64,000 nucleotides of DNA from a virus (IMGVR_UViG_3300023184_000033:62001-126000), one strand, 5' to 3'. Shown: positions 20,288-32,164, counted from the first letter of the stretch. Notes: generated by a model not told the origin, from the sequence alone. A program made the numbers and translations.

Positions 20288-20294
20288 TATTTAG
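20288..20294 (-). promoter_or_regulatory. Late promoter motif CTAAATA for the neck operon
   Basis: CTAAATA on the minus strand, 26 nt upstream of the gp13 ATG and overlapping the bilin reductase stop codon. Confidence 0.5.
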
Positions 20295-20959
20295 TTATTC
20301 TCTGGAAACAAACAATCCTGAATGAACATCTTTACTGTATTCGCATCTAGTCCTAAACTTTCCATAACCCTCGGTGTATGTGGATTCTGTTTTTGATTTT
20401 GACAATAGTAGTTCTGTTGTTCTCTGATACTACCATGATATGAAAGTGGTACATGTGTGGTACCAACATGCCAAAGATAGTAATCTGTAGTTTCATTAGC
20501 CAATGAAATTAATGTTTCTAGTTCTTTTTCGTCCTGTATATTACCTGCAGCAACCATAGACGATGAAAATATATTTTTGGCCCAATCTGGTAAATTTCTA
20601 GGCTTAGACCACTCAAAATCTTTAACACGATTCTGAAACCACTTTGACATAAAATGTTCACTATTCATACTGAAATCGTGAAAGGCACCAGTGATTTTAT
20701 TTGGTCCCGCAATTAAGTCCAAACCAAAAATTGGTGACGGGTCATTATAATGTGGAAATATACACAGATGCATCATATACAATTTTTTTGTATCACGTGC
20801 ATCTATAATATCCAAGTGTGCTCTACGAAAATTATCGGATGAATACACATAGTTTGGCCAATCAAAAGAATGTCCCTCATCAACCACAACAGAACCTTCT
20901 TTGATTTTGTTATGTACAGACTCCGATAGTTCCACCAAACGATTAAAGATGGTACTCAT
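20291..20959 (-). CDS. pcyX: Ferredoxin-dependent bilin reductase (PcyA/PcyX type)
   Basis: Enzyme of the family that reduces biliverdin to phycobilins with electrons from ferredoxin. The 222 residues align with PcyA through RRAHLD (about 45-50), MMHLCIFP (His64, matching PcyA His88), FGLDLIAGP (Asp81, matching PcyA Asp105) and a C-terminal HYCQxQ-like segment (REQQNYYCQNQKQNPHTPRVMESLG). PcyA Glu76, used for D-ring vinyl reduction, is replaced by Asp50, in a loop two residues longer. A PcyA-related family making phycoerythrobilin, PcyX, was reported from marine non-cyanophage phages beside a heme oxygenase, which is the arrangement here. Start overlaps the heme oxygenase by 17 nt. Subfamily and product are inferred. 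Confidence 0.85.
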   Translation of the reverse strand: MSTIFNRLVELSESVHNKIKEGSVVVDEGHSFDWPNYVYSSDNFRRAHLDIIDARDTKKLYMMHLCIFPHYNDPSPIFGLDLIAGPNKITGAFHDFSMNSEHFMSKWFQNRVKDFEWSKPRNLPDWAKNIFSSSMVAAGNIQDEKELETLISLANETTDYYLWHVGTTHVPLSYHGSIREQQNYYCQNQKQNPHTPRVMESLGLDANTVKMFIQDCLFPENN

Positions 20960-21467
20960 GTTCTAGTTCACCAAATAGTCTGATGACAAAATCGAAACAT
21001 TTGTTTGCTTCGGTACCCAGGTTCTCTGTTAACATTGGTCGAATCTTATCAATCATCTCTTTACGATTTTCGAAATCATACATTCTACCACTTGAAGGTG
21101 CCACTTTTTTAATCATCTGGCCACCATACATATCACCAAAGTGTCTGACATAAATGTGTGCCAAAAAATTAATTGGTTCTGAAGTAACATAATTCATATA
21201 ATCGATTGTAGAATTGTGTGGTACAAAATCAACTTCTGCCAATTCATCCAAGTCTTCTTTCATTTTATCGGCCCGCCACAGTTCTGGCATATCAGAGAGT
21301 ATACCTTGTTCCTGAGCTTTTTCTTCTAGTGTTCTATAACATAGATACTGGTTATACAGATATTCTGCATACATTCTTTTTGTTATTTTACCATTCAAAA
21401 GAAATTCTACAAATTTTGTTTTTTCTGCCGCTTCATGTTTGTCTGCAATTTGTTCACGCAATGTCAT
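20943..21467 (-). CDS. Heme oxygenase
   Basis: Opens heme to biliverdin IX-alpha, CO and iron, using ferredoxin as likely donor. The short 174-residue protein has the proximal heme His (His11 in LREQIADKHEAAEKTKF), the distal-helix GDMYGGQ motif (111-117) and family spacing between them. Bacterial and cyanophage enzymes are usually 200-240 residues, so this is a compact form. It overlaps the bilin reductase start, forming a two-step operon from heme to a phycobilin. It lies between a fibre gene and the neck genes; no own promoter is evident, so read-through from the late promoter at 22551 is likely. Confidence 0.93.
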   Translation of the reverse strand: MTLREQIADKHEAAEKTKFVEFLLNGKITKRMYAEYLYNQYLCYRTLEEKAQEQGILSDMPELWRADKMKEDLDELAEVDFVPHNSTIDYMNYVTSEPINFLAHIYVRHFGDMYGGQMIKKVAPSSGRMYDFENRKEMIDKIRPMLTENLGTEANKCFDFVIRLFGELEHEYHL

Positions 21468-21477
21468 AATTTTTATC

Positions 21478-22524
21478 CTATAGAGTATAAGTGATGGTGT
21501 TTATTAAATTGTTAGCAAAATATGTTATATTATATTTACGAGTTCCAATATTTGATATTGCTGAATTAATAGTTTCTTTAAATGATGTTACAAATCCATT
21601 GGAATTATAAGTCATTCCATCAATCGTTATAATACTATCTGTGTAAGACGATAGGTTTGTATTTGCATAAAAAATTATACCATTATTAGAATTGAATGCT
21701 GGTGAGTGAATTGATGATGCAAGACTTGTTGTGACATTGGATATTTTTGTATTTGTTGATACATTTATATCATATAGATTTTGAAATCTTGTATTTGATG
21801 TGTCTGATAAATTTTGAATTCTTGTATTTGATGTGGTCGATATATCAAATAAATTTTGAACTTTTACATTGATTGTATTAGACCAAAATAAGTAATTGTT
21901 TGCGTTTGCTGTTAATACTGTTCCGTCCGCACCAGCCGGCAAAGATATGTAGACACCGTTTGCACCCTGATATTGTATGTCACCAAGATTTGCCGTGACT
22001 ACTGCATTTTTCCAATATACTTGGCCATTTGCGGCAAGAGATAAGAATTGGTTTGCATTTCCTGTTGGTATGGTATCTGTTAAATTTAACCAACCTGGAG
22101 TTCCGTCTCCTGTGATTGCAAGTATTCGGTTAACGTTTCCTACGGGCAATCTTTGTGGTGAAGTATTACCTTGATATTGTATGTCACCTGGTTGGTTTGT
22201 TACAACATTCTTATAATCATCATTAAAAGTTCTCCAAAAATCTGGTGATGTATTTGGTTGTCTATTAATGTTGTTGCTAGATACCGCTATAAAACTTACG
22301 TTATTATATTTAATAGTATCAGATACTACATAGTAGGTGTTAGATGACCATTGATTATTCCATTGGAATCCATTTGAAATTAAAGACCAAGAAGTTAAAT
22401 TGAATGGTGAAATGGCCTTGGATGGTATAACTGCTTGATACAGTTTTCCACCATAAATTACAAAATCACCAGTTTTGTAAGATGTTGTGACGGAATATGG
22501 ACCAGTGAAAGAAGTATTTAACAT
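21478..22524 (-). CDS. Short tail-fibre-like protein, paralogue of the long fibre at 28613-32164
   Basis: A 348-residue virion protein. Its N-terminus has two units like the sugar-binding repeats of the long fibre (FTGPYSVTTSYKTGDFVIYGGKLYQAV and WSSNTYYVVSDTIKYNNVSFIA). The middle carries GDIQYQG/LPVG motifs and a short NLSDTSNTRFQNLYDI repeat that may form a helical bundle. The C-terminal ~65 residues (FYANTNLSSYTDSIITI ... INTITYTL) match the end of the long fibre closely. It therefore looks like a shortened copy or partner sharing both end modules. It has a GATAAATA late motif 26 nt upstream. Confidence 0.75.
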   Translation of the reverse strand: MLNTSFTGPYSVTTSYKTGDFVIYGGKLYQAVIPSKAISPFNLTSWSLISNGFQWNNQWSSNTYYVVSDTIKYNNVSFIAVSSNNINRQPNTSPDFWRTFNDDYKNVVTNQPGDIQYQGNTSPQRLPVGNVNRILAITGDGTPGWLNLTDTIPTGNANQFLSLAANGQVYWKNAVVTANLGDIQYQGANGVYISLPAGADGTVLTANANNYLFWSNTINVKVQNLFDISTTSNTRIQNLSDTSNTRFQNLYDINVSTNTKISNVTTSLASSIHSPAFNSNNGIIFYANTNLSSYTDSIITIDGMTYNSNGFVTSFKETINSAISNIGTRKYNITYFANNLINTITYTL

Positions 22525-22584: not shown

Positions 22585-24402
22585 TTATTCAGATGAGAAT
22601 TTAATTACATTTTTGTTTTTAACGGTAATTAGTTTGTTGTATTCTGGTAAATATAGATATTCTATTTGACTCTTTGATAGAGTATCAATAGCATCATCGA
22701 GTGTTTCCACTAAAGGATCACCACCTAAATTAAAACTGGTGTTGAAAACAATTGGTACTCCAGTACGGTTTTTAAACTCTGAAATTAATCTGTGATAAAG
22801 AGGATTATCTTCTTTTGTAACCGTCTGAATTCTGCAAGTGTGGTCAACGTGAATAATGGAAGGTATCTTTTCTTCTACACCAGGTTGACAGTTCACAGCA
22901 TACATCATGTGTGGAGAACTCTCCATACCACGCAAATCAAACCATTCATGCACATCTTCTTGTAGAATTGATCCAGCAAAAGGTCTAAAGTATTCTCGGT
23001 GTTTTACACTGTTAACAAAGTCTTTACCATCTTCAAATGTAGGATCAAAAAGTATACTACGATTTCCTAAAGCCCTAGGACCATTTTCACTACGACCTTG
23101 GAATATAGCAACAATATTTTTATTGACCATCAATTCAACGATATCAGCATCTGTAGCATCTTTGATTTCGGCTTGATTGTTGTAAATAATTTCAGACAAT
23201 TCTTCTGGTGTATAATTGTAAACTGGTCCAAGATATACGTCAGATTTACGTTTCATCATAGATTGTTCGGCCGAATGGTAGAACAATAATGCCACACCAA
23301 TTGCTGTTCCACCATCATTTGAAATCGGTTCAACATATAAATTAATACCTAATTCTTTTAATTTTGTCAAATAGTGGTAATTAGCAACACAGTTTAGTCC
23401 ATAACCACCACTCAAAACAATGTTTTTCTTACCTGTTTTTTCACTGGCTCGAATAATTAGATTCAATACTTGTTCTTGAGTTTGTGTTTGAACTGCATAG
23501 GCCAAATCTCTACGATTCTGTAATTTTGTAATGTCATCTTCTTCACCTATATCTTGCAACTCTTGTATCATACCAGCATTGATAAAAGCAGAACCTGGAT
23601 ATGTTGGTGTGATAAAGTTTCTATCAGATAATGTGTATTCACTAGATCCATTTACATTACTGAATAATTTTGGTATATTGGTATTTTCTTTACCATAAGG
23701 AAAAAGTCCCATTGTTTTTCCCGCTTCAATGCCGGAGAAACCACAAAACTCGGTTGCTGCCTCATATGTTTTTGTGATGCCAGCTCTATCCGAAAATATT
23801 GCTTCATATGTTCCTTCTTCATTCAGATACTGTGCATCAATATTTTGTTTCGAAAATGGTATACCATCTTTGTTACCATAGTGTTTATAAACAGTTTTGA
23901 AGTTTGCTGGATAAGAACATTCTAAGATTGTTTCTACTTCCCAAAAATAGATAGGTTGTCCTCTGCTTTCGGCAACCATGCAAGAACCAGCACCGTCAAC
24001 AATCAATGCTGCTGCATCATCAAAACCGGAACGATAAAATGCACAAGCAGCATGAATTTTATGGTGTTGATGACTTAAATCAATCACCTGTGGATGGTTG
24101 TACAAGTCTGCTTTTCTATCAATCAGACCTATTTTTCTTGCCAAACCGGTATACACATTATCACCTGTGAAGTCTACTGTACCGGCAGTTTCTTTTAATG
24201 GTTGTGTATGTGATACTACAATGTAATCAACTTTATTTGTATATTCTTTTACTTTCAATATACCAGCATATGGTCCACCATCGTATTTGTGTCGGCTTAA
24301 TCTTTCTTCTTCAAGACTAAAAACTATTTCACCATCTTTAAGTAAGCAAACACCTGCATTGTGACCACGACTAATTCCTAAAATATAACCAGTTTTATTC
24401 AT
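22585..24402 (-). CDS. NodU/CmcH-family carbamoyltransferase
   Basis: O-carbamoyltransferase that moves a carbamoyl group from carbamoyl phosphate, through carbamoyl-adenylate, to a hydroxyl, often on a sugar. The 605 residues match family size. The N-terminal Kae1-like domain shows GISRGHNAGVCLLKDGEI, metal-site histidines (LSHQHHKIHAACAF, about 109-122), VDGAGS and LSGGYGLNCVANY. The C-terminal domain has GRSENGPRALGNRSILFDP and FNTSFNLGGDPLVETLDDA. It begins 3 nt after the GT9 gene, so the two form one operon and may carbamoylate a glycan on the virion or host. Homologues occur in marine T4-like phages. Confidence 0.94.
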   Translation of the reverse strand: MNKTGYILGISRGHNAGVCLLKDGEIVFSLEEERLSRHKYDGGPYAGILKVKEYTNKVDYIVVSHTQPLKETAGTVDFTGDNVYTGLARKIGLIDRKADLYNHPQVIDLSHQHHKIHAACAFYRSGFDDAAALIVDGAGSCMVAESRGQPIYFWEVETILECSYPANFKTVYKHYGNKDGIPFSKQNIDAQYLNEEGTYEAIFSDRAGITKTYEAATEFCGFSGIEAGKTMGLFPYGKENTNIPKLFSNVNGSSEYTLSDRNFITPTYPGSAFINAGMIQELQDIGEEDDITKLQNRRDLAYAVQTQTQEQVLNLIIRASEKTGKKNIVLSGGYGLNCVANYHYLTKLKELGINLYVEPISNDGGTAIGVALLFYHSAEQSMMKRKSDVYLGPVYNYTPEELSEIIYNNQAEIKDATDADIVELMVNKNIVAIFQGRSENGPRALGNRSILFDPTFEDGKDFVNSVKHREYFRPFAGSILQEDVHEWFDLRGMESSPHMMYAVNCQPGVEEKIPSIIHVDHTCRIQTVTKEDNPLYHRLISEFKNRTGVPIVFNTSFNLGGDPLVETLDDAIDTLSKSQIEYLYLPEYNKLITVKNKNVIKFSSE

Positions 24403-24405
24403 AAT

Positions 24406-25473
24406 TTATACTTTCTTACTTTCTAAAGAGTTTGCGATAATCGATTTTGAAAATGGCAGATCATTTGATACTTGAACTGGTGGGCAACAAGAATTTGTTG
24501 TTTCGGGAATTGTAGGACTATATGTGGAATTTTTCTGTGTAGATTTTCCTAATTTGTCTGTAATGCTTTTAATAATTCTTTTAAAACTATCTTCACTCAA
24601 TACCATTAATTCTTCATTTGATCGTTCAATGAAGTAGTCCATAGAAATGCGGATTGGAGAATATGTTCTCTTACCTTTACCACCGTCAATAATGGTAAAA
24701 TCTTTATTGTTTGGATAACTAATGTTTTCTGGAAATGTGGCACCGATTACAACCGTAGCTGGTTTTTTGAGTGCGTTAGCAAAGTGTTGGCCAACAGAAT
24801 CACATCCTAAGAAATAATCTGAAGCTTTAATGATTGCCATCCATTGCAATAAATTAATATTTTCAGGCAGAGCAACCGATAATTGTTTGTTTCCTGGTGG
24901 TGGAGGTATCTTTAAATCGGTCATCAAAATCACGGCATAATGTTTTCCTAATTCTTCAATAATTTTCATTACATCGGATAGTTCAAAACTTCTACCAGTT
25001 TCATCGATGATAAAATTACCTTGCATTTTGGCACCAGAACCAAAAGGCTGAAACACCACCACTTTTTGTTTCTTTAAGTTAGTTTTAATTTCATTGGTAA
25101 AATTGTAACCGAATACTTGGTCACCTTTGCCAATATTTAAATTAAATTCTTTACTTTTTGGAATCTCATCGGTTGTTTCATTAATCAACATATCGAATGC
25201 TTGAATCAGATTTACTTTCTGATTGAAATAAGCATTTAACCGGTAAGGTTCAGGAGAAATAATTTCTCTGTCAAGGAGTTTATCCTCAAAAATATTTTTG
25301 TGGTTCATTGGATACACATTGTTTGCCAAGCTTGGACTGGTTAAGAATAACTCCATCCAAGCTTCTGCAACAATTATTGCCGTGGGATCCACATTTTTTA
25401 CATAGTGTTCTAATGCTGGTATTGCACAAAAAACTCGACCCGAACCACCATTTAGAAAAAACGCTTTCTTCAT
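24406..25473 (-). CDS. GT9-type glycosyltransferase (heptosyltransferase-like)
   Basis: A 355-residue GT-B protein. The N-terminal domain opens with FLNGGSGRVFCAIPALEHYV, a GDxL-type start as in heptosyltransferases. The C-terminal nucleotide-sugar domain has VVVFQPFGSG, ASDYFLGCDSVGQHFANALKKPATVVIGATFPEN, which holds the donor-binding motif. The last ~40 residues are a low-complexity Ser/Thr/Pro tail. A sigma70-like promoter (25505-25533) and a GGAG ribosome site precede it, and the carbamoyltransferase follows directly. Donor and acceptor are unknown. Confidence 0.8.
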   Translation of the reverse strand: MKKAFFLNGGSGRVFCAIPALEHYVKNVDPTAIIVAEAWMELFLTSPSLANNVYPMNHKNIFEDKLLDREIISPEPYRLNAYFNQKVNLIQAFDMLINETTDEIPKSKEFNLNIGKGDQVFGYNFTNEIKTNLKKQKVVVFQPFGSGAKMQGNFIIDETGRSFELSDVMKIIEELGKHYAVILMTDLKIPPPPGNKQLSVALPENINLLQWMAIIKASDYFLGCDSVGQHFANALKKPATVVIGATFPENISYPNNKDFTIIDGGKGKRTYSPIRISMDYFIERSNEELMVLSEDSFKRIIKSITDKLGKSTQKNSTYSPTIPETTNSCCPPVQVSNDLPFSKSIIANSLESKKV

Positions 25474-25548: not shown

Positions 25549-26760
25549 TTAGAACCAAGTCACGCACACTTGACCTGCACGACCAAGGTCACCACCACAA
25601 CAACCAGAATTTGGATCACAAATGGCTGTACAACCACCAAACATTATAGCAGCTGTTCCGCCGGCACCAGGTATTCTGCGGTAACCGGTATAACAATTAT
25701 TACAACACATGCCACCAAGGGTGCTGCCTTGCATACAGAGTACGCAGATAGAAGCAGCTTCGTATCCGTAGGTTGCTGGAGCTCGAGTATGGCCATAAAA
25801 GTTTGTATCGAAACACCAACATGCATTTAATCCTGGTATACCAACAACTTGTGCTCCATACGAAAAACACATATTTTTTAACGATGAATATACAGAACCA
25901 GTGTAACTTCCATAGAAGTTTGTGATTGTACTTCTACTATATGGTATGATTCCACATGAAGAACAGCTGTTGGAGAAGCAAAAATCTGCTGACCCGTTGC
26001 AAATACATGCACCGGAAGTAAAACAATCTGCCGATGACCATCTGCAACAACCGGTGCTCCAAGCATACATATCTTGATCGTAATACAAGGTGCACCAATG
26101 TGCTTTTGCACACGCACCTTCAGCACAGAAATTGGATAAACCATATCCTGTTACATATGACGCACAACTTCTACCTCCTTGTGCCGCCCATAAACAAACG
26201 TTTTGGTTTCTATTGCCAGCACATAAGTTATATGTACATCCAGGAATGACAGGAATTATTACTGAAGCATAAGCTCCAGACGTTCCCCAATCCGCACCAC
26301 CACAACAACAACCCTGGCCAGTTTTTCCGCCCGCACCCCAAATTTGAAACCTAGCAAATGTTGTACCAGCAGGAACAACCCAAGCGCAAGCTGCATCACA
26401 AGTGTAACAGCCGTTTCCTCGGACGGTAAGACCAGAATATTCAATTCCTGTTACCGGATTAGTACCGGCTGAACTTGTGTCTGGCGATCCAGGCATCCTT
26501 GGAATTGAAGATGCCCAGTTTGAATAACACCAAGGCAAATTCTCAGAATCACTGCACCATTGGCCACATTTTTGTGAACAAACATAGAGTGCTGAATTCG
26601 TGGCCCAAGCCGTAGCGTCATTTGCTGAACCGGCCGCCGCAATTCCGGCAGTGTTGCCAGCAGCTGCACCAGCAACGTTCGCAGCAGTATTTGCGCCGCC
26701 TTGTATACAAACAGTAGCATCAGATATAGCACGTACTGCTGAATATTTTAAAATGTCCAT
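25549..26760 (-). CDS. Glycine- and cysteine-rich putative tail adhesin A
   Basis: A 403-residue protein with about 39 cysteines (nearly 10%), including CC and CCC clusters. The N-terminal ~50 residues are Ala/Gly/Asn-rich. After that comes WVVPAGTTFARFQIWGAGG, GGADWGTSGAYASVIIPVIPGCTYNLCAG, and a Gly-rich end (IPGAGGTAAIMFGG). This resembles glycine-rich receptor-binding domains of phage fibre tips, where loops pack as polyglycine-type sandwiches (inference). It is a paralogue of the protein at 27456-28601. No signal peptide or enzyme motif is seen. The Cys could form disulfides outside the cell or bind metal. Confidence 0.7.
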   Translation of the reverse strand: MDILKYSAVRAISDATVCIQGGANTAANVAGAAAGNTAGIAAAGSANDATAWATNSALYVCSQKCGQWCSDSENLPWCYSNWASSIPRMPGSPDTSSAGTNPVTGIEYSGLTVRGNGCYTCDAACAWVVPAGTTFARFQIWGAGGKTGQGCCCGGADWGTSGAYASVIIPVIPGCTYNLCAGNRNQNVCLWAAQGGRSCASYVTGYGLSNFCAEGACAKAHWCTLYYDQDMYAWSTGCCRWSSADCFTSGACICNGSADFCFSNSCSSCGIIPYSRSTITNFYGSYTGSVYSSLKNMCFSYGAQVVGIPGLNACWCFDTNFYGHTRAPATYGYEAASICVLCMQGSTLGGMCCNNCYTGYRRIPGAGGTAAIMFGGCTAICDPNSGCCGGDLGRAGQVCVTWF

Positions 26761-26778
26761 AAGACTAACCTTTTTTTA

Positions 26779-27417
26779 TTATGGTAATACATCAAAAGCA
26801 AGAATCAAATCTTGTGGAATAGCCGGTACTTCTGAAAGTTTTGGTACAGCAATAATTTTCCAAGAAGGTATACTTCCTTTGCCTGTTGTTTCAAACGTAT
26901 CGAGTGTTTGTAAATATGTATTTGCGATTTGCATTAAATCTGTATTACTGGAAATTGTAGAAATATGTGCGTTCACATAATCTCTATTTCTTTGAGCCAT
27001 ATCATTTAGTCGGCCTTTTGGATTTCTTGTTATGAATGTCCATTTCCATGTGTCGGTTTGCAAATCATAATTTATATGGTACATGTCACGTAACGTTGGA
27101 TTCGTTATTTGTTCATAAGTTGTTCCATCAACTAAAGTTTCTGTTGCAAAAATCCTATCGGGAGTAGTTGTATTTGTTACATAATACGCAACATCAGGAT
27201 TTATTCTGGCATTAATTATTACTTGTTTACTAATATCTGGATTATAATTGAAATTTAAGTCCTCATGCACATCTTGTATTCCACCTTCAGGAATATCAAC
27301 GGCAACATATAGTAAAGTGTTTCCACTATAAACATAAGATTGTGTGTTTCCATTTGTGAATGAATCGATATACAATTCATTAGGAACCGGTTTTGTAAAA
27401 TTAACTTGAATATCCAT
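26779..27417 (-). CDS. Unknown protein between the two Cys-rich adhesin genes
   Basis: A 212-residue protein with no Cys and no recognised motif. The N-terminal half is beta-rich (NFTKPVPNELYIDSFTNGN, TLLYVAVDIPEGG). The second half is helical (MAQRNRDYVNAHISTISSNTDLMQIANTYLQ) and ends PSWKIIAVPKLSEVP. Placement between two paralogous adhesin genes suggests a fibre assembly or connector role, but there is no direct evidence. It has its own exact TATAAATA promoter and an AAAGGA ribosome site. Confidence 0.6.
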   Translation of the reverse strand: MDIQVNFTKPVPNELYIDSFTNGNTQSYVYSGNTLLYVAVDIPEGGIQDVHEDLNFNYNPDISKQVIINARINPDVAYYVTNTTTPDRIFATETLVDGTTYEQITNPTLRDMYHINYDLQTDTWKWTFITRNPKGRLNDMAQRNRDYVNAHISTISSNTDLMQIANTYLQTLDTFETTGKGSIPSWKIIAVPKLSEVPAIPQDLILAFDVLP

Positions 27418-27439
27418 TTAAAGTCCTTTTATTAACTAT

Positions 27440-27447
27440 TATTTATA
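27440..27447 (-). promoter_or_regulatory. Late promoter TATAAATA
   Basis: Exact late box on the minus strand, 22 nt upstream of the 212-residue gene and in the 38-nt gap after adhesin B. Confidence 0.8.
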
Positions 27448-27455
27448 ATGTTTTA

Positions 27456-28601
27456 TCAGATCCATGTAACACAAACAGCGCCACCGGCACCAGGGAGTCC
27501 GGAAGACATGTTGCCAGCGCAAACGTTTCCGCCTATACCACCTCTACTAGGAAATTGGTAAGTTCCGGATGAATAAGGTGAACATCCACCCATAGTTGTA
27601 AACAGGTAACAGCTGGAGCAAGTGGTTGTAGTTATATCAACAATTGGTGGGGAAACAAAAAATCTATATACGTCCCATGTTGATCCCACTGAAGTTTTGT
27701 TGAACATTCCTGGAGCGCCAATAACATAATGACAAGATTTAGTTGCTATACCAGGATTTAGTGAACCGTAAGCAATTCGGCAAGACGTAGAATATGGCAA
27801 CTGGTCATGACCAGTACACTGATTATTCCAGCAAAAACCGCCCCAGTTGCACATACAATATCCATAAGCGGTACCTCTACAAACTTTGCTAAAACCACCT
27901 CCGTTATTTTGAAGTACACAATATCCATTGATACCGCCGGGGGCAGCTCCACCAACTCTGGCTAACCAACACGCTGGACTTGGTTCACCACCATCAGCAC
28001 AGAAATTGGTTAAACCATATCCCGTTACAAATGACGCACACCCTTGGCCAGTATTGTAATTACCTTGTGTACAATAATAACAACAACATTCAGCACAACC
28101 AGCACAAAGAGTATATACGCATCCAGGAACAACAGGCATTATTACTGAACCATAAGCTCCAGAACCACCAAACATTGTAATTCCACAACAGACGTTACCT
28201 TTTGAAGCAGCGCCTGCACCCCAAACTCGGAACCTAGCAAATGTTGCACCAGCTGGAACAGTCCACGCACAACATATACCACATCGACCTTCAACTGTAT
28301 CAAAAACCGTAAGAGCTCCTGTAGGACTAGGTAGTGTTGGAATATTAGCCCAAGTATCATTACACCAAGGCCTTGTCCACAAAGAACAACCAGCCAAGTA
28401 TCCAAAATTAGATGCTTTTTCTGCTTGTTTTAATGATCCAACAAATGCTGCGGCGATGCCATTATCAAAACCAGTAGTATATGCACAAGTATATGCAGCC
28501 GGATACAACGTGTTGGTTGCATAAGTCTGTGCAACATTTAAAGCCGGAGCTAAAGCATTATAATCGGCCGCCAGTTTATTATATTCTAAAACATCTAACA
28601 T
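27456..28601 (-). CDS. Glycine- and cysteine-rich putative tail adhesin B
   Basis: A 381-residue paralogue of the protein at 25549-26760, with about 31 cysteines (8%). Matching blocks are WTVPAGATFARFRVWGAG, GGSGAYGSVIMPVVPGCVYTLCAG, CASFVTGYGLTNFCA and a C-terminal GLPGAGGAVCVTWI. The N-terminus (MLDVLEYNKLAADYNALAPA) is a different, helical segment that resembles the opening of the 32210-33004 protein. Cys positions differ in part from adhesin A, notably an ECCCYYC cluster. It follows the long fibre gene by 11 nt, so it may be that fibre's tip protein (inference, by analogy with fibre/adhesin pairs in T-even phages). Confidence 0.7.
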   Translation of the reverse strand: MLDVLEYNKLAADYNALAPALNVAQTYATNTLYPAAYTCAYTTGFDNGIAAAFVGSLKQAEKASNFGYLAGCSLWTRPWCNDTWANIPTLPSPTGALTVFDTVEGRCGICCAWTVPAGATFARFRVWGAGAASKGNVCCGITMFGGSGAYGSVIMPVVPGCVYTLCAGCAECCCYYCTQGNYNTGQGCASFVTGYGLTNFCADGGEPSPACWLARVGGAAPGGINGYCVLQNNGGGFSKVCRGTAYGYCMCNWGGFCWNNQCTGHDQLPYSTSCRIAYGSLNPGIATKSCHYVIGAPGMFNKTSVGSTWDVYRFFVSPPIVDITTTTCSSCYLFTTMGGCSPYSSGTYQFPSRGGIGGNVCAGNMSSGLPGAGGAVCVTWI

Positions 28602-28612
28602 TTTTTATCCTT

Positions 28613-31600
28613 TTATACTACTGTCCGTGTGATGGTGTTTATAATATTATTTGCATAATATGCTATAGTATATCTATAATTTGTGCCGCCACCACCAATT
28701 GCTGTGTTTACTTTTTGGTTGAAGTTCGTTACAAAACCATTTGCATTGAATACTGTGTTTGACACTTCAATAGTACTATCTTTGTAGAAAGCAATATTGG
28801 TATTAGCATAATATATAGTATTTGCCGAATTATATGTTGCATCATAAATGGCATCTGAAACTCTAACTTGTGATATAGAAGTGTTAGTGGATGTTGCAAA
28901 TGATGCTAAATTAGCGGTGACACTACTTATTGCACTATCAACATATGATTTAACCGCAGCCTGTGTTGGCACTTTTACGTTTGAGTTTTGTGAGAATGTG
29001 GAGTCAGTAGAGAACTCATTAATCTGAGCACCAATCTGAGCACCAATAGAACCAAGTCTCAATGATGACAATCCAGACAAGTTGAAAGCAGAAGCATTCA
29101 ATGTTGCAGAACCAGTCGCCTGATTAACAGCAAAATAAGGACCAACTGAGAAGTTACCGCCTTGGTCAGTTGTCACATAGTACACACGACCAGGATAGTT
29201 TTGAATTGTCTGATTGGATGGTATATTTTGTGTAACAGAAGTATTTGGATAATTTGTATTTGCTATGCCACCAGTACCAATTGACAAGAAATCGTGGCCA
29301 GTTAAACGAATGTTACTAAAGTTTTGACGGATAATAACCTGTTGGCCATCGAAAGCTGGATTACTTGCAGGTTTTGCACTTGCTAGTGTTACGATTGCAG
29401 TATTTGCATTGCTACTCCAGTTAGAAACGGATGCAACAACATATGAATAAGGATCATAACCAGTATTTGCGGCGCCAGTTGTAAACTGAAAACTGCATCC
29501 AGGTAAGATATTTGTATTAGCTGATAGATTATTAATTGTTACAATAATACCATTTTGACCAGTTATTGCACTAGCCGTTTGCGTGTTTGCATAAAAACCT
29601 GTTGGTGTCGTAAATGTTGCATCAGTATATTCAACAAGTCTTTCATTATTTGCAAAAGTATTTGCATTTTGACCAGTATACTGAAAGTATACTTGTTGAT
29701 TCGTTGTTTGAAATGTTAGAACCAAAGCTCTTGCATTTGATGTTACACCCAACATGTAGTTGTTAGATGTGAAAATTGAACCAGATGGATATACTGTGTT
29801 TGCAACGTATTGAATCATACTACCATAAACGTTGGCAGTGATTGGATTTTCACTCAGTAAATAACCAGTTGCAACAGCACCAAATGTTCCGTAAGAGTTG
29901 TTGCCGTTCAATGCACGAATAACACCGCCATTGTTTGCAACATAACCAAAGTAACAGAAGTATGTGAAACAAGAAACAATCTCAGCCCGACCACCGTTAG
30001 TTACATAGTAACCAACACCATTATCACCAAGAATGGTGAATGAGTGGAACAACATCGATTTGTTACCAGATGTATGAACTGCACCATCAATCATCGCAGC
30101 AATACCACCAGTTGAAATGGCGGTCATGTCATTGATGTATGGAGATTTATTGATAATTGGACTTGCAGGATTCAAACGTAAGAATACACCACCAATCGTG
30201 TGTGTATTAATATCTGAACCAGCTTGATATGCTGTGTTTGCAGAAATCGCCAGATTTGGTATATAACCAGTCATACCTCTTAATGTCATACGACCCATGC
30301 CGGTTGAGTCGCTCAGGAAGAACATCGTACTATTTGCATTTGGAGTCAAACCATCTGAGGATAATCCGGCTGCAGGTTCAATAATTGTTGTACGTGTTGT
30401 GTCACCGAATATTGAACATCCTGGCGGCAATGTAATTGGCAATTTCTCCTTATATACACCACCTCTTAACATAATCGTTGCAAGATTTTGACCTGGTGAG
30501 TTTGCTGCATCAAGTCTTTGTGTTGCATATTGAATTGATTGCCAAGGTCTTTGAGCACTTACACCGTGATATGGATTATCTATACCCGAATCAACGCAAA
30601 CATAATAAACGTTTGCATCTGGTGCTGGATTTTCCCATTGTGGAAGACCAGTATTTGAAACAACTAAAATTTGTCCGTTAGCACCGACCGGCAATCTTGC
30701 CATACCACCAGATGTTTGTATTAACAAGTCACCTGGAGATGTTAATGTACCCTCTAAAGAACCTTGTGCAAGAACTGACCAGTATGCACCATTATTAGCA
30801 GGCACAATATTTGTGTTATTGATTGTTGCATTTACATAAGTTGTATTTGCATAGAATACTGATTCACCAAGTTGATAGGTTGTTGCATTACTCCACGTAC
30901 CTCTACTCCGTATACCTTCAGAATATACTGCCCATTGTGTTGTATTTGAAGTAGTTGGTGAGATATTCGTAGAAGATGTTAACGCAATGTATGTATTACC
31001 ACCAAATCTTGATAAGTCACCAGCATTATACTGTTGGCCTGGATTATAGTAATTTGTGTAATTCGTGCCTGTATTATGTGTAACCCATTGAGCAGAATTT
31101 GATAGGGTTGGCGTAATATTTGCGGATGTTATTAGTGCAATATATGTATTACCACCAAATCTAACAACGTCACCAGCATTATACTGTTGACCATTAACAT
31201 ACATGTCTCTAAAATTGCTACCTGTATTGTATGTAGTCCATTGAGTAGAATTTGCTACGGTAGGTGTAATATTTGCGGATGATATTAGTGCAACGTATGT
31301 ATTACCACCAAATCTAACAACGTCACCAGAATCATATTGTTGACCATTAACATATGTATTTCTAAAATTGCTACCTGTTGTTAATGTTATCCAGCTGTTT
31401 GAATTTGCAACAGTTGGCATAATAGCTACAGTTTCAGTTTGAGCAATGTATGTATTACCACCAAATCTAACAACATCACCTTTAACATAATTTGTATTCG
31501 CAACGTAAGTACCCAAATATTGTGTACCTTTACTTACTAGGTCCCAATTTGATGCCAGTGACGGCAAAACGCCTGTAGATTCTAATTTGTTGACGTAAGT

Positions 31601-32164
31601 GTAAGCACCATAGTTGACAACTTCACCTGGTTCATATTTTCTTGAGTAACTATAATTACCAACAGCAATATATCCTGTTGTCATTATATCCCATGCAGCG
31701 GTATTAATGTTTGGATATTGGTTGATGTTGTTTAACGCAGCAACATAAGAATAACCACCATACGTTATAACGTCACCAACTGAATAGTTTACTGTGTTTG
31801 CATAGTTATCTAAGAATTGAAGACCACCAGCAAACAGTTGGAAGTTTCCAGTATTGGCTGCAAAACTATTTACGTTACCGGATCTATGTTGGGTTGTTAC
31901 AATATATGCATCAGCACCATAACGAACAACATCGTTTAGGTTATATTGTGTGTTTGCTGTCCATGGACCAGTCCAATTAAAACCTGGAGCAATTTTAGTC
32001 CAGTTTGAAATGTCGGTATAGAAGAATGAACTCGCTGTATGATTTCCCGTACAAGCGTAGGCAATACCACCATATGTGATGATGTCATCTTTGATATATG
32101 ATGTTGCGGCCACCCATGGACCAAGAAAAGTAAATTTTAATCTACCTAGTACAAAATCTGCCAT
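28613..32164 (-). CDS. Long tail fibre with sugar-binding-like repeats and beta-helix
   Basis: A 1183-residue virion fibre. Residues ~10-465 are nine ~50-residue units with a Y..GDVV.FGG.TY.A pattern, like the small carbohydrate-binding modules of chitinases. Next comes a GDLLIQTSGGMARLPVG linker, then a parallel beta-helix-like region (VCVDSGIDNPYHGVSAQRPWQSIQYATQ ... LPPGCSIFGDTTRTTII), which is common in phage fibres. The C-terminal ~75 residues match those of the short fibre at 21478-22524. The downstream Cys-rich adhesin may cap it. No lyase active site was identified in the helix. Confidence 0.85.
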   Translation of the reverse strand: MADFVLGRLKFTFLGPWVAATSYIKDDIITYGGIAYACTGNHTASSFFYTDISNWTKIAPGFNWTGPWTANTQYNLNDVVRYGADAYIVTTQHRSGNVNSFAANTGNFQLFAGGLQFLDNYANTVNYSVGDVITYGGYSYVAALNNINQYPNINTAAWDIMTTGYIAVGNYSYSRKYEPGEVVNYGAYTYVNKLESTGVLPSLASNWDLVSKGTQYLGTYVANTNYVKGDVVRFGGNTYIAQTETVAIMPTVANSNSWITLTTGSNFRNTYVNGQQYDSGDVVRFGGNTYVALISSANITPTVANSTQWTTYNTGSNFRDMYVNGQQYNAGDVVRFGGNTYIALITSANITPTLSNSAQWVTHNTGTNYTNYYNPGQQYNAGDLSRFGGNTYIALTSSTNISPTTSNTTQWAVYSEGIRSRGTWSNATTYQLGESVFYANTTYVNATINNTNIVPANNGAYWSVLAQGSLEGTLTSPGDLLIQTSGGMARLPVGANGQILVVSNTGLPQWENPAPDANVYYVCVDSGIDNPYHGVSAQRPWQSIQYATQRLDAANSPGQNLATIMLRGGVYKEKLPITLPPGCSIFGDTTRTTIIEPAAGLSSDGLTPNANSTMFFLSDSTGMGRMTLRGMTGYIPNLAISANTAYQAGSDINTHTIGGVFLRLNPASPIINKSPYINDMTAISTGGIAAMIDGAVHTSGNKSMLFHSFTILGDNGVGYYVTNGGRAEIVSCFTYFCYFGYVANNGGVIRALNGNNSYGTFGAVATGYLLSENPITANVYGSMIQYVANTVYPSGSIFTSNNYMLGVTSNARALVLTFQTTNQQVYFQYTGQNANTFANNERLVEYTDATFTTPTGFYANTQTASAITGQNGIIVTINNLSANTNILPGCSFQFTTGAANTGYDPYSYVVASVSNWSSNANTAIVTLASAKPASNPAFDGQQVIIRQNFSNIRLTGHDFLSIGTGGIANTNYPNTSVTQNIPSNQTIQNYPGRVYYVTTDQGGNFSVGPYFAVNQATGSATLNASAFNLSGLSSLRLGSIGAQIGAQINEFSTDSTFSQNSNVKVPTQAAVKSYVDSAISSVTANLASFATSTNTSISQVRVSDAIYDATYNSANTIYYANTNIAFYKDSTIEVSNTVFNANGFVTNFNQKVNTAIGGGGTNYRYTIAYYANNIINTITRTVV
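30770..32140 (-). repeat. Nine tandem ~51-codon repeats in the long fibre
   Basis: Units of about 50 residues share Y..GD(V/L)..FGG(N)TY.A and an aromatic near the end. The DNA string atgtattacc recurs on the plus strand at 30991, 31144, 31297 and 31450, exactly 153 nt apart. The inner units are recent duplications; the outer units have diverged. Confidence 0.88.

Follow-up and report, generated by a model that had tools for sequence, protein, structure and literature searches.

Whether a phage can infect a given marine cyanobacterium or other bacterium depends on its receptor-binding proteins, and those of T4-like cyanophages are mostly unassigned. A stretch of viral DNA of 64,000 nucleotides, which is called the window here, raises the question of what two cysteine-rich proteins contribute to such a virus. 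The first transcribed of the two (slot 1; 27456..28601, minus strand) has 381 amino acids with 31 cysteines (8.1%), the second (slot 2; 25549..26760, minus strand) 403 amino acids with 39 cysteines (9.7%), while the other 49 open reading frames counted in the window contain 100 cysteines in 19,823 amino acids (0.50%). The cysteine counts given in an earlier note on this DNA were reproduced, as were the CC clusters described there, with five CC steps in the slot-2 protein and four in the slot-1 protein. The reading which we regard as rather probable is that both are receptor-binding fibre tips of a T4-like marine myovirus which are cross-linked by disulfides.

Features of the Two Proteins

Besides cysteine the proteins contain much glycine (14.7% in the 381 amino acids of slot 1, 13.6% in the 403 of slot 2). 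The cysteines are found mainly towards the C-terminus, with 34 in the last 289 residues of the slot-2 protein and 5 in the preceding 114, and 28 in the last ~280-283 residues of the slot-1 protein and 3 in the preceding ~98-101. The slot-1 protein consists of an N-terminal helical segment (residues 1-98, 3 cysteines; 28308..28601, minus strand) with predicted helices at residues 4-41, 48-56, 59-76, and 81-85, and of a TNF-like/glycine-rich domain (residues 99-381, 28 cysteines; 27459..28307, minus strand) assigned by a Foldseek match to 7ypx_A and by profile alignment. The W.VPAG.TFARF..WGAG core which had been noticed before is indeed common to both paralogues, in the form of WVVPAGTTFARFQIWGAGG and WTVPAGATFARFRVWGAGA. 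In the slot-1 protein the conserved core WTVPAGATFARFRVWGAG is encoded at 28212..28265 (minus strand), where alignment columns are near-invariant, and in the slot-2 protein the core WVVPAGTTFARFQIWGAG at 26329..26382 (minus strand). Since relatives keep the frames at full length and dN/dS to the nearest relative, in locus L006, is 0.35, the two reading frames are real genes, and an artefact or a wrong frame was ruled out.

Distribution of the Family

In a profile search of IMG/VR at least 297 relatives passed and 80 loci were kept, which rules out a one-off oddity. Cysteine makes up 5.8-11.8% (median 9.7%) of the sequence in 167/167 non-redundant full-length members, and searches using low-cysteine members as queries yielded no relatives with lower cysteine content. 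The earlier note had known of no counterpart, but the family occurs on hundreds of metagenomic contigs, and in annotated phages tblastn located it in P-SSM2, P-SSM5, and single-cell marine viruses, then in S-CAM1, S-CAM3, S-SSM7, S-SSM6a, and Sf-FS3. Members in cultured cyanophages are annotated 'hypothetical' or carry no annotation. Direct homologues are PSSM2_304/306 of P-SSM2, SXBG_00224-226 of S-CAM1, and SfFS3_97-99 of Sf-FS3 (PHROG 35878 / 4205), with the same cysteine load, companion gene, and gene order; they differ in occurring in two or three copies and in being annotated hypothetical. Both window proteins matched PHROGs 35878 (E 3.1e-38 for slot 1, 2.3e-39 for slot 2) and 4205, both of unknown function. 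Neither had a match in a Pfam and NCBIfam search, with no Pfam family at E<=1, and a PDB sequence search with the window proteins returned nothing. A literature search gave no match for cysteine-rich cyanophage fibres and no functionally described counterpart.

Four matches in MAGs (L113-L116; Flavobacteriales, Actinomycetota, Rhodobacteraceae, and Euryarchaeota bins) lie in the same tandem as in the phages and have the appearance of viral contigs caught in genome bins, so that a cellular origin was rejected. These GTDB bins belong to four unrelated phyla, and the contigs with the block are probably phage DNA which was binned along. Another observation was that cysteine-rich proteins (8-10%) starting with MAKN(I/L)..F.P lie beside family members at L040:1572-2588, L040:4715-5794, and L075:4704-5786. 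They fall under the family profile threshold and are perhaps a third divergent branch.

Fold and Glycine-Rich Relatives

Structure prediction, which had been suggested in the earlier note, was carried out for the slot-1 monomer and led to a phage fibre. The AlphaFold2 model had a mean pLDDT of 73.6 and a pTM of 0.75, with poor cysteine-rich loops. Its best Foldseek match in the PDB was the fibre of cyanophage Pam3 (7ypx_A; E 6.2e-6, prob 1.00, TM 0.33/0.46, sequence identity 15%), followed by the Bxb1 tail tip and then by TNF-like/glycine-rich domains of ALK/LTK. Among viral models it matched P-SSM2 Q58M49 (E 2.5e-24) as well as numerous phage proteins labelled 'glycine-rich domain'. The T-even/S16 gp38 adhesin (6F45) was absent from the 50 best Foldseek matches of this model and gave no PDB sequence match either.

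In Pam3 the chaperone gp25 serves the tail fibre gp24 (PMC9608196; PDB 7YPX). Common to gp24 and the proteins described here are N-terminal helices, a TNF-like plus glycine-rich distal domain, and variable distal loops; next door both systems also have a gene, for a chaperone in Pam3 and for a putative one here, with the beta domain first and helices last. By analogy with gp24 (PMC9608196), residues 1-98 of the slot-1 protein probably serve for docking and trimerisation. Pam3 differs in having a single fibre protein instead of two paralogues behind a CBM-repeat fibre, and gp24 in a distal domain with 39% glycine and in the lack of any cysteine in the region aligned to the slot-1 model.

With PF21722 Gly_rich_2 the family has in common a W.VPAGV...WGAGG start, a V.PG..Y...G middle, and a G..G.V.V.Y end. 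The window proteins themselves lie under the curated cut-off of 24.3 bits, and no match to this family was found in G000, the record which contains the window; the close relatives SXBG_00224 (40.4), SfFS3_97 (27.1), and G010:C74 (33.4) lie above it. Profile-profile alignment of the family with cysteine-poor Gly_rich_2 domains extended from VPAG at one end to G..G.V.V.Y at the other, over 206 columns (E 3.9e-5, probability 70.6). With 18% the family domain falls short of the very high glycine content of ordinary Gly_rich_2 domains, which is mostly 23-47% in the controls (some 20 domains from bacterial genomes); its cysteine content is 10.5% as compared to 0-1.4%. Cysteine is thus abundant here where other Gly_rich_2 members abound in glycine. 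Ordinary cysteine-poor Gly_rich_2 proteins also occur in P-SSM2 and S-CAM1 (2 cysteines in 485 amino acids and 1 in 723). As both Pam3 gp24 and ordinary Gly_rich_2 domains are poor in cysteine, the fold as such has no need for it. According to the earlier note, homologues which share the fold and lack conserved cysteines would refute its reading, and here the comparison points in both directions: close relatives all keep their cysteines, whereas the distant Pam3 gp24 and Gly_rich_2 domains lack them. The family can be regarded as a new, cysteine-rich form of an established fibre-tip fold, and it occurs widely among marine phages of the T4-like type.

The Gene Block

The cysteine-rich proteins had been described as a pair. 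Two paralogues are present, but a third gene, which is free of cysteine, lies between them (26779..27417, minus strand; 212 amino acids) and is part of the block. The recurring order is tail fibre, cysteine-rich protein, companion, cysteine-rich protein, glycosyltransferase-9-like (GT9-like) protein, and carbamoyltransferase, the alternative being three cysteine-rich copies and then the companion. Over 86 loci, many of those missing a block gene ending at contig ends, homologues of the companion were found in 77/86, of the GT9-like protein in 77/86, and of the carbamoyltransferase in 72/86. The companion is probably a tail-fibre assembly chaperone; PF16778 Phage_tail_APC is matched by 11 of 30 relatives and not by the window copy, and its model (pLDDT 96) had no confident fold match in the PDB and none to gp25.

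Upstream of the block lies a tail fibre of 1183 amino acids with CBM_5_12 repeats (28613..32164, minus strand; phrog_9851 tail fiber E 1.3e-265, PF02839 E 2.4e-18). Such a CBM-repeat fibre is found in 49 of the 61 loci long enough to reveal it and is the probable carrier of the cysteine-rich tips. On the other side, at 22585-25473, a GT9-like and a NodU-type carbamoyltransferase gene are tightly linked to the tips. The former encodes a heptosyltransferase-like protein (24406..25473, minus strand) with PF01075 in 12/16 relatives, the window protein itself remaining under the cut-off (E 6e-4), and the latter a NodU/NolO-type enzyme (22585..24402, minus strand; PF16861 E 2e-59, PF02543 E 3.4e-27, phrog_1601 E 3.6e-168). 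Heptose-synthesis genes come after the block in P-SSM2, S-CAM1, and AG-345-P14, and large LPS gene clusters have been noted in P-SSM2 and S-SSM7 (PMC3037559). The linkage to sugar enzymes may concern the host lipopolysaccharide or the tips themselves.

Evolution and Proposed Role

The slot-2 protein is about 83-84.7% identical to its nearest relative in L006, compared to 95.7-99.7% for the neighbours. Its dN/dS of 0.35 (neighbours 0.02-0.16) and its dS of 0.28 (neighbours 0.06-0.14) are both raised; it is likely that the protein changed faster and also that a divergent copy was imported. The changes concentrate near residues 100-125 and 225-300, and 37 of the 39 cysteines are retained. Fast, clustered change is typical of receptor-binding parts. 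Slot labels on the tree changed 6 times as compared to 21 when shuffled, so the slots are old separate lineages and the pair did not arise by recent duplication.

Block order, the chaperone-like companion, the divergence of slot 2 from L006, and its dN/dS of 0.35 all point to a role as tips, which, as judged from homology and context, is well supported. The fold match, the gene order, the companion gene, and the fast evolution also bear out the earlier description of paralogous, glycine-rich, fibre-tip-like proteins. Presence in the virion, a trimeric state, receptor binding, and disulfides are all four features which we infer. Both proteins would sit at the distal ends of the tail fibres in a T4-like marine myovirus as receptor-binding tips, carried by the CBM-repeat fibre immediately upstream. 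The N-terminal helical part would dock the tip onto the fibre and trimerise, the distal part would correspond to the TNF-like/glycine-rich domain of Pam3 gp24, and the gene between the paralogues would encode the chaperone which folds the tips. A large part of the glycine in the glycine-rich lattice would have been replaced by cysteine in this lineage. Most probably, disulfides within and between chains would form when the particle passes from the reducing cytoplasm to oxic seawater, where they would brace a domain with fast-changing loops and prolong stability outside the cell.

Cysteine Patterns and Chemistry

CC steps are strongly over-represented (z 12.6) and CxC steps less so (z 3.1), with no excess of CxxC (z -0.4), a pattern which suits cross-links between neighbours better than zinc-ribbon sites. 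Nine or ten cysteine columns are nearly universal among the 167 members (slot-1 positions C138, C139, C166, C173, C201, C251, C257, and C328, plus the S304 column) and all others vary; about half of all cysteines fall in columns conserved in >=50% of members. The number of cysteines is even in 85/167 members, so that parity carries no signal among them, and odd in both window proteins, where consequently not every cysteine can pair within one chain. Co-gain and co-loss of cysteine pairs on the tree likewise gave no general signal, with 1 of 1,326 pairs passing correction. A fixed pair C107-C169 (r 0.91) was rejected, as it came down to 2 co-changes when ancestry was counted (p 2.7e-3 before correction). 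Odd counts together with uncoupled gains and losses make it unlikely that the disulfides follow one fixed pattern lying entirely within the chain, and the simplest account would be a disulfide network which is partly variable and partly inter-chain. A search for a phage sulfhydryl oxidase, run without a positive control, found none. A thioredoxin gene is present in the source phage and was not found in P-SSM2, Sf-FS3, and S-CAM1.

Binding of a metal (Zn, Cu, Fe, or a cluster) by the tip cysteines, which would order the glycine-rich lattice or aid docking to a metal-uptake receptor, is considered an unlikely explanation of these patterns. Coliphage fibres hold iron and docking to iron receptors has been proposed for marine phages, the frequent CC, CCC, and CxC steps recall metallothioneins, and odd cysteine numbers pose no difficulty for it. 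However, CxxC is not enriched, histidine amounts to just 1.8%, the conserved cysteines are scattered across the whole domain and not arranged in sites of four, and we know of no fold-mates which require a metal. With 381 and 403 amino acids, a predicted beta fold, and the CxxC and CxC values given above, the proteins are not like metallothioneins, which are short, unfolded cysteine-cluster proteins enriched in CxC and CxxC.

Disulfide-bonded virion proteins are known from a myovirus, the Agrobacterium phage Milano (PMC10491603). There, 2.4% cysteine is spread across neck, collar, capsid, and tail, whereas here 8-10%, about 4 times the load of the Milano structural proteins, is confined to two proteins; with 0.50% in the rest of the window, a Milano-type rise in many structural proteins was not found. 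The bovine ultralong CDR H3 antibodies (PMC7366855), an analogy only, also have fast-changing cysteine-rich recognition loops with varying pairing and odd counts, but differ in protein, origin, and setting.

A Second Cysteine-Rich Family

As the first relatives had come from cysteine-rich queries, loci were re-collected with the cysteine-poor GT9-like query. The cysteine-rich family was present in 59 of the 62 informative loci collected in this way. One of the other three had no block, and in L206 and L241 the slot is taken by another protein, whose cysteine content is 11.5 and 13.3%. Relatives of this protein with 6-9% cysteine are encoded at the corresponding place in L219, L223, and Kyanoviridae virus AG-345-P14 (L248), the order in the latter being fibre, a 105-aa protein, a cysteine-rich protein of 282 aa, companion, GT9-like, carbamoyltransferase, and heptose genes. 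The second family is located at L241:6523-7422, L206:6532-7395, L219:2-898, L223:747-1430, and L248:5117-5965. It has 6-13% cysteine with conserved CC pairs, fills the slot before the GT9-like gene, and showed no relation to the first family in profile comparison (probability 0.5% and below). As an unrelated protein fills the same slot, the cysteine load goes with the locus rather than with the fold; this favours the view that cysteine itself is under selection. The retention of the load in 167/167 members and its recurrence in this unrelated protein suggest that it serves a purpose not yet described.

It is possible, if somewhat doubtful, that marine T4-like phages, as a whole class, arrived at cysteine-dense receptor-binding tips two or more times, starting from unrelated proteins, at one GT9/carbamoyltransferase-linked locus, with cysteine chemistry as the working principle. 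If this were true, a stable yet re-wireable recognition surface would result from a disulfide lattice which can be reshuffled, from bound metal, or from modified thiols, and the logic of this surface would be comparable to that of the cysteine-rich ultralong antibody loops.

The same linkage would fit tips which are themselves substrates, the GT9-like protein adding heptose to cysteine or other residues and the carbamoyltransferase decorating the heptose. Tips and both enzymes are strictly linked (77/86 and 72/86, in the reverse direction 59/62), also where the tip is the unrelated cysteine-rich protein, and the next genes in P-SSM2, S-CAM1, and AG-345-P14 are heptose genes. This is nevertheless improbable, given that the GT9 similarity is weak (E 6e-4, under the cut-off), that the GT9-like protein matched no protein-glycosylating family, and that such sugar genes usually alter the host lipopolysaccharide against re-adsorption or superinfection. 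Quite improbably, the proteins could be late products which act on the surface of the infected cell and do not enter the virion. The adjoining sugar-modifying genes and the absence of proteomic detection would agree with this; the published virion proteomes of S-SM1, S-PM2, Syn9, and S-CREM2 have no bearing on the question, as tblastn showed no family member in these phages. The structural similarity to fibre and tail-tip proteins of phages, the chaperone-like companion, and the position behind a tail fibre speak against it. Covalent adsorption, by exchange of free tip thiols or strained disulfides with thiols of the host surface, would be in line with odd counts, the lack of a fixed pairing signal, and cysteines at hypervariable as well as conserved positions, but is very improbable, because a reactive tip would become oxidised in seawater, about half of the cysteines lie in columns kept in >=50% of members, which looks like structure and not like a single reactive site, and to our knowledge no phage works in this way.

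With fibre tips cross-linked by disulfides as the preferred reading, candidate receptor-binding proteins are now indicated in the cultured phages P-SSM2, S-CAM1, and S-SSM7. As the cysteine load is kept family-wide and recurs in an unrelated protein of the same locus, the role of cysteine in a virus particle in seawater has become testable.

Neighbouring Genes

Downstream of the carbamoyltransferase, at 21478-22524 of the window, a second, short fibre-like protein with CBM_5_12 repeats (348 aa) is encoded. A ferredoxin-dependent bilin reductase and a heme oxygenase adjoin each other amid structural genes (20291-20959 and 20943-21467), and no psbA was found in the 163.8 kb record. Beyond the window, at 138.5-140.3 kb of the same record (G000:C1; L112:5561-7258), there is another tail-fibre-tip block, which comprises a Phage_tail_APC chaperone and three small fibre-tip-like proteins and is adjoined by a phoH-like gene.
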